A stretch of 47,659 nt of DNA from Levilactobacillus senmaizukei DSM 21775 = NBRC 103853 (GTDB taxonomy: Bacteria; Bacillota; Bacilli; Lactobacillales; Lactobacillaceae). Both the position numbers and the translations under genes were made by a program. Under the pieces are notes generated by a model, which was not told the origin of the DNA, did no database searches, and was given only the letters and a program-made list of their open reading frames with translations. Positions 32,144 through 34,268 of this stretch are shown here, in pieces. The stretch covers positions 1 through 47,659 of the forward strand of contig NZ_BCWD01000018.1 of NCBI RefSeq assembly GCF_001592085.1, read 5' to 3'. The first letter of the stretch is position 1, and every line of letters begins with the position of its first letter.

Positions 32144-32800
32144 ATGGCAACCGTCACACTTTACCTGGTCCGTCACGGCCAAACCTATTTAAACAAGTAT
32201 CACCGCATCCAAGGGTGGTCCGATTCACCCCTGACCACCAAGGGTGAGGCTGACGCCGCACGGGCCGGCCAACGGCTCTCAGACATCCATTTTGCCGCGG
32301 CTTATGCCAGTGACACGGCTCGGGCTCAGAACACGGCTAAGGCCATCTTAGCGGCCAATACCACGCCCGTTACCTTGACGACCGAACCGGCCTTTCGTGA
32401 AGTTAACTTCGGTTACTTCGAGGGCTTGGATGCCGGCTTCACGTGGCACACTCTAGGCAGTCCGCTAGGTTATGATGACTTCAATACCATGATTGCCAAT
32501 CTGACCATCGAAAAAACCAAGGACCTGTTCCACGCGCAGGACCCCTGGGGTGACGCGGAAGACAACACCACCTTCTGGGCGCGGGTACAACCGGGCCTCG
32601 ACCATGCTGTGGCTGCCGCCAAGGACGGCGACAACCTCTTGATCGCGACCCATAGCACAACCATTCGAAGCATTGTCTCCAAGTATTCCGATGTCGACGT
32701 GTCGATTCCGGTTAAGAACGGAAGCATCACCCAGTTGGTTGTCACGGACGGTCACTACAGCGTTACCGATTACAACAACAGCGAGGGTCCCCTCGCCTAG
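32144..32800 (+). CDS. Histidine phosphatase family protein
   Basis: A 218-residue protein of the phosphoglycerate mutase-like histidine phosphatase superfamily. The phosphate-accepting histidine lies in LVRHGQTYLN (about residues 8-17), the second histidine in THSTTIRS (about residue 170), and the arginine and glutamate of the pocket in DTARAQNTA and FREVNFG. These enzymes remove phosphate from varied small molecules; the substrate is unknown. AAAGGAG lies 9 nt before the ATG. It follows the antiporter gene and probably shares its transcript; a strong terminator closes the unit. Confidence 0.9.
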   Translation: MATVTLYLVRHGQTYLNKYHRIQGWSDSPLTTKGEADAARAGQRLSDIHFAAAYASDTARAQNTAKAILAANTTPVTLTTEPAFREVNFGYFEGLDAGFTWHTLGSPLGYDDFNTMIANLTIEKTKDLFHAQDPWGDAEDNTTFWARVQPGLDHAVAAAKDGDNLLIATHSTTIRSIVSKYSDVDVSIPVKNGSITQLVVTDGHYSVTDYNNSEGPLA

Positions 32801-32810
32801 ATGAGATGAC

Positions 32811-32849
32811 AAAAAGACGAGTCGTTAGAAATAACGGCTCGCCTTTTTT
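32811..32849 (+). terminator. Terminator after histidine phosphatase gene
   Basis: A stem of about 16 bp with one mismatch, a wobble and a bulge (32811-32827 with 32832-32849), loop GAAA, ending in TTTTTT. Confidence 0.8.
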
Positions 32850-32988
32850 GAGGTCGATTTTTGATTGATAATCTGTAGCAGTGGAACCATGCCGGAAATC
32901 CACCGGCTAGGCCATCTCGTGATAAATATCCCTGCCTAAGGAACGATACCATACGGATAGTCGATACCGTCGTTATTAAACTGCCAAG

Positions 32989-33245
32989 CGTAGCCGGAGG
33001 GGGCCAACGTACACCCCCACCCAAACTCAGACGAGTGTTTGCAAAGGTCGTCAGTCGTAGCCGGAGGCCGGCAGGAAGGGTCCGGCTATGACGGCAATGT
33101 TGGTCGGTGGTCTGCCGACTTACTGTGCGGGGCGAGCTTGGAGACCTGCGGGTTTGGCAGGGCTGCAAGTCGAGGTGTAAGCCCGCTCTTTGGCTGGAAC
33201 CGACCCCATAGCGGGCGCCCTTCCTGGCGGCCGGAGGCGGCCAAC
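32989..33245. repeat. GC-rich, self-complementary non-coding element
   Basis: This stretch between two convergent operons is markedly GC-rich against its neighbours. Two 16-bp copies at its ends agree at 15 of 16 positions: 32993-33008 and 33230-33245 (GCCGGAGGxGGCCAAC). A 12-mer, CGTAGCCGGAGG, is repeated at 32989 and 33056. Inside, 33066-33090 pairs with 33207-33232: 14 of 15 bp, then nine more pairs. Nested within are GGTCGG (33102-33107) with CCGACC (33200-33205) and GCGGGTTT (33148-33155) with AAGCCCGC (33179-33186). No reading frame looks coding. It could be a structured RNA or a dispersed repeat; the strand is undecided. Confidence 0.65.
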
Positions 33246-33260
33246 ATCAATAGAAGAGCA

Positions 33261-33303
33261 AACAAAAACCCGCCAAGCTCCTCACAGTGAGCTAAGCGGG
33301 TTT
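33261..33303 (-). terminator. Terminator of the opp operon
   Basis: AAACCCGC (33266-33273) pairs with GCGGGTTT (33296-33303), and an inner AGCTC/GAGCT pair adds five more. On the minus strand TTTTTGTTTG follows. It stands 6 bp after the oppF stop. Confidence 0.9.
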
Positions 33304-33308
33304 CGTAT

Positions 33309-34268
33309 TTAGTCTTTGATCAATGACGCTTCATGGGCCCGCCTGGTGTACATGGCGATTTCATCATCGGCCGCACGAACCCAGTGCCGTGGCGAAATTT
33401 CCACCATGTGACGGGACTTGCCATCGTTCTCTTGACTGCCATCATAGGCAATCTCTTGGCGAGTCCGTTCGAACTCGGGATCAGGAACTGGCACCGCTGA
33501 CAACAAACTCTTAGTGTAGTCATGCAGCGGGTGCGCGTAGATTTCATCGGAATCAGCAATTTCCAACATCCGGCCATAGTGCATCACACCAATTCGGTCG
33601 GAGATATACTTCACCATCGAAAGGTCATGGGCGATAAACAGGTAAGTTAAGCCCTGCTCCCGTTGCAGCTTCTTCATCAGGTTGACCACTTGGGCTTGAA
33701 TCGACACGTCCAACGCGGAAATCGGTTCGTCAGCAATGACAAACTTAGGATCCACGGCCAACGCCCGGGCAATCCCAATCCGTTGCCGTTGCCCCCCAGA
33801 GAATTCGTGAGGGTACCGACTGGAGTGGTCCTTATTCAACCCAACGGTTTCCAGCAAGTCTTCAACCCGCTTAGAACGATCGGCATCGTCCTTTGCTAAA
33901 TGGTTGATATCGATCCCTTCGGCCACAATATCCTTAACCTTCATCCGTGGATTCAAGGAGGCATATGGGTCTTGGAAGATCATTTGCATATCTTGCCGGA
34001 ACTCGCGGTGATCGGCGGCACTAGTGAAAGTGTCCACGTTTTTCCCGTTAAACAGGATTTCACCATCAGTTGGTTCGTAGAGGTGAATAATAGCCCGACC
34101 AGTGGTGGTCTTACCAGAACCAGATTCACCAACTAAGCCAAAGGTTTCGCCCCGGTAGATGTCAAAGGAAATGTCATCAACGGCCCGGACTTCATCGGGC
34201 TTGCCCACGTTGAAGTATTGCTTGAGGTGCTTCACTTCGAGGATTTTCTCGGCATTTTCATAGTCCAT
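33309..34268 (-). CDS. oppF: Oligopeptide ABC transporter, ATP-binding protein OppF
   Basis: A 319-residue ATPase subunit of the Opp importer. Walker A is GESGSGKTTT (about residues 47-56), the ABC signature is FSGGQRQRIG (about 156), Walker B is FVIADEP with the catalytic glutamate, and the H-loop is IAHDLSMV. The C-terminal extension after residue 240 has the oligopeptide-transporter type region (PVPDPE). It pairs with OppD as the nucleotide-binding heterodimer at the cytoplasmic face. Its start overlaps the oppD stop by one base (TAATG). It is the last gene of the operon before the terminator. Confidence 0.95.
   Translation of the reverse strand: MDYENAEKILEVKHLKQYFNVGKPDEVRAVDDISFDIYRGETFGLVGESGSGKTTTGRAIIHLYEPTDGEILFNGKNVDTFTSAADHREFRQDMQMIFQDPYASLNPRMKVKDIVAEGIDINHLAKDDADRSKRVEDLLETVGLNKDHSSRYPHEFSGGQRQRIGIARALAVDPKFVIADEPISALDVSIQAQVVNLMKKLQREQGLTYLFIAHDLSMVKYISDRIGVMHYGRMLEIADSDEIYAHPLHDYTKSLLSAVPVPDPEFERTRQEIAYDGSQENDGKSRHMVEISPRHWVRAADDEIAMYTRRAHEASLIKD

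Follow-up and report, generated by a model that had tools for sequence, protein, structure and literature searches.

The window analysed here is a stretch of 47,659 nucleotides of Levilactobacillus senmaizukei DSM 21775, taken from contig G000:C18 (NZ_BCWD01000018.1), which belongs to a 2.2-Mb assembly. A histidine phosphatase gene and an oppF-like ABC ATPase gene converge on the noncoding region considered in this work (Table 1). The initial annotation had described positions 32989–33245 as a GC-rich stretch without a credible gene, lying between two terminators. The GC content is about 0.63–0.66 across 33000–33249, and the two open reading frames that overlie this stretch (83 and 123 aa) had no Pfam match at E<=0.01, in agreement with that description. 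Concerning the terminators, the upstream one on the plus strand was found by the terminator scan; the downstream one on the minus strand, adjoining the 3' end of the element, was missed by the scan and is recognised by eye and by a sub-threshold Rfam hairpin match. No promoter-like site was found in 32750–33350. Two open reading frames of 91 and 115 aa within 32465–32812, antisense to the phosphatase gene, are probably due to chance.

Table 1. Features of the locus, in window coordinates
Feature	Position	Strand	Basis or remark
Histidine phosphatase gene (PF00300)	32144..32800	+	ORF list and Pfam
Terminator-like hairpin 3' of the histidine phosphatase gene	32818..32841	+	terminator scan
67-nt stretch missing from the near relative G026, beginning with CGTAGCCGGAGGGGGCCAAC	32989..33055	+	by eye
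Element, one structured type I module, model positions 1-203	33049..33247	+	covariance model R1, 176.1 bits, E 1.2e-51
Closing stem P1, 5' arm	33060..33090	+	consensus structure laid on the window
Hairpin P2	33094..33128	+	12/12 pairs with compensatory change in alignment A3
Junction stem P3, 5' side (partner 33204-33206)	33129..33131	+	mostly invariant, weakly supported
Hairpin P4	33133..33172	+	13/15 pairs with compensatory change in A3
Hairpin P5	33174..33201	+	loop region similar across the main subfamilies
Junction stem P3, 3' side	33204..33206	+	consensus structure
Closing stem P1, 3' arm	33207..33238	+	consensus structure laid on the window
Terminator-like hairpin 3' of oppF, adjoining the 3' end of the element	33265..33305	-	by eye and sub-threshold Rfam hairpin match
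oppF-like ABC ATPase gene (ABC_tran, oligo_HPY)	33309..34268	-	ORF list and Pfam

Two direct copies of a 16-mer, GCCGGAGGGGGCCAAC (32993–33008) and GCCGGAGGCGGCCAAC (33230–33245), are identical at 15 of 16 positions, a match that was reached in none of 300 dinucleotide shuffles. Their interpretation as near-identical end repeats of the element had to be given up: the upstream 16-mer is situated outside the element (about 33049–33247) and inside the 67-nt stretch that is missing from G026. The arms 33066–33090 and 33207–33232, which had been proposed to pair, do so, and their best 15-nt inverted match (14 of 15) was reached in none of 40 shuffles. Folding of the single sequence was not unusual, with z values of −1.41 and −1.00 and with 22 and 32 of 200 shuffles folding equally well or better. 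As the single sequence folds no better than its shuffles, only comparison reveals the fold.

A BLAST search of the host genome with the window element returned one copy and no others. This copy count is misleading and a covariance model was therefore needed. With model R1, 48 matches were obtained in the same genome at E<=1 and 44 at E<=1e-3; three of the latter are antisense shadows, leaving 41 places (150 of 395 candidates scored). In the genus Levilactobacillus 28 of 35 genomes matched by BLAST, the core of the element extending over about 33056–33244, with up to 23 matches in one genome when at most 19 candidates were scored. A profile made from such copies yielded, at E<1e-3, 94 hits in 400 kb of genome G015 and 50 hits in 400 kb of genome G032, corresponding to about one module per 4 kb in the former and per 8 kb in the latter. 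After merging, 7 of 94 hits in G015 and 1 of 48 in G032 overlapped an open reading frame of at least 100 aa. Across the Lactobacillaceae, with eight candidates scored per genome, the genomes matched by the covariance model at E<=1e-5 numbered 80 of 301 and represented 10 of 40 genera. Plasmid and phage records contained no match to the window element, and the plasmid records contained none to an L. brevis copy either. Among the single copies neither strand of the neighbouring gene was clearly favoured, and cis regulation of the neighbours was rejected on this ground. The dispersed repeat that the initial annotation had considered possible is supported: copies in the relatives are mostly intergenic, and the covariance model places many in the host genome.

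Inside its long closing stem the module has hairpin P2 together with a weakly supported, short junction stem that encloses hairpins P4 and P5; the window copy forms 52 of the 56 testable consensus pairs. Among 38 copies, 45 of 58 pairs change on both sides and 95.5% of the cells pair, compared with 81.4% in shuffled alignments and at most 42% in slid ones. Stretches of five genomes gave 176 matches, the best 150 of which formed a larger set; these were aligned to the model, a procedure that favours the structure. Compensatory change was seen in this set at 54 of the 58 pairs, the score being 0.495 compared with 0.150 after shuffling. None of 500 shuffles attained any of five covariation measures, be it in the 38-copy or in the 150-copy set. 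The compensating changes that the initial annotation had proposed to look for are strong among the copies, and by this comparative evidence the fold is real. Three main subfamilies were found, which differ in their outer parts and have inner stretches in common, including unpaired ones.

The consensus folding energies calculated with alifold were −70.3 on the plus strand and −43.9 on the minus strand. In alignment A3, G-U cells exceed A-C cells by 116:30 (shuffled means 227:143). The single departures from pairing in 34 reciprocal-best cross-species pairs (identity at least 0.85) gave a G-U:A-C ratio of 51:18 (p 9e-5), the 17 flank-matched pairs alone giving just 20:12. Because G-U departures exceed A-C departures and alifold favours the plus strand, this strand is probably the folding strand.

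All 32 opposite-strand neighbours at most 1 kb apart in G015 and G032 were found in −+ order, and single copies had their 3' end closer to an open reading frame in 101 of 113 cases (median distance 52 nt from the 3' end versus 284 nt from the 5' end), as expected of halves of a head-to-head element. The spacers of paired modules in G015 and G032 show little mutual likeness; therefore not every module pair in these genomes represents one insertion.

Complete elements were recognised in other species. In G320, a genome of another genus, the repeating unit is made up of two head-to-head modules with about 40 nt between them in the consensus, and its ends are CTAAAGGTTGAAAG and the complement thereof. 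At least seven of eight flank letters are duplicated in 4 of 12 G320 repeat pairs versus 0 of 132 mispaired ones. At the site of one G320 copy the flanks lie 49–294 nt apart in 17 of 20 relatives, the longer stretch of G320 including other intergenic DNA as well; in the remaining three relatives the flanks are farther apart (two genomes) or on separate contigs (one genome). In G003 the same terminal 14-mer (CTRAAGGTTGAAAG) was counted 56+64 times (control 1+3). It is frequent too in G009, G014, G022, G027, and others, and is near background in other Levilactobacillus genomes, including that of the window (4 versus 2 for the control). Twenty regions of G003 were picked by hand from the 14-mer list as repeat pairs, and 13 of them have target duplications of 7–8 bp (7/7 or at least 7/8 letters; null 2 and 1 of 380). 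Dissection covered the nine intact G003 relatives, which are 615–644 bp long, carry one module per strand and 14-bp terminal inverted repeats, and are 83–97% identical to each other; the other eleven regions are shorter. Of the characteristics of a MITE, terminal inverted repeats are present in the G003 and G320 relatives and not recognisable at the window copy, target duplications occur in G003 and G320, the window copy having no ends at which to look for them, and a presence/absence difference between relatives was observed at the G320 locus. Intact terminal repeats vary sharply in number among the 35 Levilactobacillus genomes, some having none and G003 having 120, a pattern suggestive of bursts in particular lineages.

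Insertion sites were also compared between genomes of Levilactobacillus. In comparisons among G015, G029, and G017, the copies that could be tested numbered 68, 36, and 19, and the site was occupied in the partner for 37, 20, and 10 of them; 5, 2, and 0 sites were empty and 26, 14, and 9 unclear. At least five of the seven Levilactobacillus sites inspected read as internal deletions and not as insertions, and two alignments were poor. At sites in G029 and G015, recurrent internal deletions leave only the module ends, resembling solo scars; one of these scars was apparently joined at a short common motif.

The composite profile of G003 aligns to the window over its right-hand module only (33044–33242), and at the window copy neither a recognisable terminal repeat nor a left module was found. 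This copy stands by itself as a single module with no recognisable ends. As the 14-mer is also near background in its own genome, it is the module that assigns it to the element. The 67-nt stretch with the upstream 16-mer is probably what remains of a tandem copy that collapsed. The motif GCCGGAGG can occur at both module ends, so that a tandem neighbour lost between its two ends would have left a trace of this kind.

Several transposases were considered as the mobilising enzyme. A Y1 transposase as a required partner was rejected, since PF01797 is found in 23 of 35 genomes and in none of the copy-carrying genomes G000, G002, G003, G009, and G029. The ISL3 and IS256 families make target duplications of about 8 bp. 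They were rejected as movers as well, given that G320, G007, and G022 had no match and that no terminal-repeat pair was found around the 59 loci of ISL3 or IS256 transposase matches that were covered. Nine regions of G003 and G001 with widely spaced repeats were chosen, and ten open reading frames from five of them (L357, L358, L359, L362, and L365) were tested with Pfam; these ten contained no transposase domain, the remaining frames and the other four regions being inspected by eye. No autonomous partner emerged from these loci and regions. The L. brevis strain CD0817 (G030) has 20 IS256-type transposase matches, which fall mostly into two groups of identical scores.

In our interpretation the stretch is a solitary module from a MITE-like mobile element that occurs in the Lactobacillaceae, its fold most likely working at the RNA level; we assign to this reading a probability of roughly 60%. 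The initial annotation had offered a folded RNA, a MITE/BIME-like repeat, or a protein-binding site as possibilities; the first two go together, the stretch being part of a dispersed mobile element with an RNA-like fold. The intact element of other species comprises about 500–645 bp with two paralogous modules of about 200 nt, their 5' ends pointing inward. Full copies, being too short for a transposase gene, would be moved in trans by a transposase encoded elsewhere. After insertion the ends, and in many cases one of the modules, would decay, a course suggested by the layout, leaving single modules like the one described here. The plus strand would fold into the closing stem with three hairpins, and statistical evidence points to maintenance of this fold at fixed genomic positions. 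In the least certain step, the transcribed plus strand may fold into a structured RNA platform or a transcript boundary. The action of the module would be largely independent of the strand of the neighbouring gene.

Maintenance was assessed with copies matched by position. Between G015 and G029, which are closely related species, 34 copies could be matched by their flanks; ten of these were absent from the 150 aligned rows, to which 16 of 20 G015 stretches contributed, and seven were below 0.85 identity, so that 17 were kept. All 28 double changes in these 17 copies preserve pairing, 3.0 such cases being expected if the changes were independent, and single changes keep the pair in 20 cases and break it in 23 (45 cells unpaired in both copies were set aside in these counts). 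Paired positions diverged by 5.9% and unpaired positions in loops by 10.7%; in the 5' flanking sequence of position-matched copies the divergence was 19.1%, flanks that were too short or more than 0.4 divergent having been dropped. Reciprocal-best copies with unchecked flanks gave 43 double changes in 27 pairs versus 4.7 expected and, for G027 versus G031, 5 in 10 pairs versus 0.4 expected. Of the single changes in these two sets, 42 of 73 and 13 of 22 preserved pairing (expected 29% and 28%). Judging from these counts, the fold seems to be kept at fixed positions after insertion.

A purely selfish MITE, whose fold serves mobility alone in the form of single-stranded DNA hairpins or by contact with the transposase, could produce the same in-place pattern by gene conversion or by template switching between hairpin arms. 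The terminal repeats, the target duplications, and the one insertion difference suit such an element, and 18 of the 28 double changes fall in four copies, where they are largely clustered in the outer stem. Just 16 of the 28 are double transitions and 12 are not. Gene conversion or hairpin-templated repair may therefore contribute to the in-place double changes. When the four copies are removed, the remaining 13 nevertheless contain 10 double changes versus 1.4 expected, with a divergence of 4.6% in pairs and 9.3% in loops; their single changes keep the pair in 19 cases and break it in 22. This result, together with the unpaired stretches common to the subfamilies and the G-U:A-C ratio of 51:18 (though 20:12 in the position-matched subset), makes a fold that serves mobility alone the less likely reading.

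We regard as improbable a feature of duplex DNA, for instance a cruciform or a BIME-like element to which a DNA protein binds. The intergenic and dispersed occurrence and the lack of a clear neighbour-strand preference would fit such a site. A duplex, however, has no preferred strand, yet the excess of G-U over A-C (51:18) and the alifold energies both favour the plus strand.

The position next to oppF raises the question of a cis regulator retained 3' of this gene. The oppF gene is present in 35 genomes, and at 14 of the 30 same-genus loci examined a module whose 3' end faces oppF was found downstream of it (E<1e-10). At the other 16 loci there is no module at this threshold. The strand that folds runs antisense to oppF, and the element occurs in many other intergenic regions too. 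Moreover, in a tree of 82 copies those downstream of oppF split into several species groups instead of forming one; repeated insertion and deep divergence are therefore both possible for these copies. A regulator of oppF is consequently very improbable. A single conserved noncoding RNA gene would agree with the size and the fold and can be dismissed, being refuted by the many copies per genome and by the mobile-element ends of the relatives.

Returning to the lone module of a mobile element, we tentatively propose that this element seeded Lactobacillaceae genomes with one RNA fold, by extrapolation in hundreds of copies in some of them, and that the hosts keep most copies functional, perhaps with one shared bound protein. 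Should in-place maintenance of the fold hold true, a sequence of parasitic origin would have become a genome-wide RNA feature in bacteria including L. brevis, and the density of modules could affect transcript ends, annotation, and assembly. The many semi-independent copies would provide a test bed for what selects a dispersed fold, a question that the BOX, ERIC, and BIME repeats raise as well.

The initial annotation knew of no named family that matches, and no family of Rfam 15 reached its gathering score; a lax search yielded two sub-threshold matches. In the open-access literature, as far as titles and the beginnings of abstracts go, nothing describing this repeat was found. The folding repeat of about 200 nt in Levilactobacillus and relatives is apparently undescribed. 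The BIME/REP and ERIC repeats of enterobacteria are intergenic and abundant, occur in adjacent opposite orientations and are imperfect palindromes; REP units measure about 35–40 nt and are linked to Y1 transposases. The present element resembles the enterobacterial repeats in being intergenic, abundant, and arranged side by side in opposite orientations. It differs from BIME/REP in its modules of about 200 nt and in that Y1_Tnp had no match in several copy-rich genomes. BIME and ERIC are also named in sections of PMC3049150.

The same sections of PMC3049150 describe BOX, RUP, and SPRITE of S. pneumoniae as small dispersed structured repeats, proposed to be slow-inserting parasitic mobile elements, which can be co-transcribed and of which other streptococci are almost free. 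PMC3049150 nowhere uses the word "compensatory". Both these repeats and ours are small dispersed structured repeats of Firmicutes; as far as those sections go, ours differs by extending to 10 of the 40 genera sampled in its family instead of a near restriction to one streptococcal species, by strong compensatory change, at fixed positions too, and by two inverted modules of about 200 nt. With the prokaryotic MITEs, as treated in parts of the review PMC10969869, in which the word Lactobacillus is absent, the element has in common that it is short, apparently without a transposase gene, and has terminal inverted repeats and target duplications. It is distinguished from them by inverted repeats of just 14 bp and by folding in two separate multi-hairpin modules. 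Lacto-rpoB and Lacto-usp, given as structured RNA candidates of Lactobacillales in a portion of PMC2864571, belong to the same order; the present element is below the gathering score of every Rfam 15 family. In PMC2267715, on stem–loop families, a word search returned Lactobacillus johnsonii only as a row of counts.

By eye, type II resembles the core placed within the outer stem of type III (G015 stretches L032–L051), and G015 copies have about 50 nt of additional flank homology on either side of the core. Terminator-like hairpins were more numerous in the 5' than in the 3' flanks of modules in G015 (56:16), G029 (40:11), and G017 (13:7), and nearly balanced in G032 (19:17).
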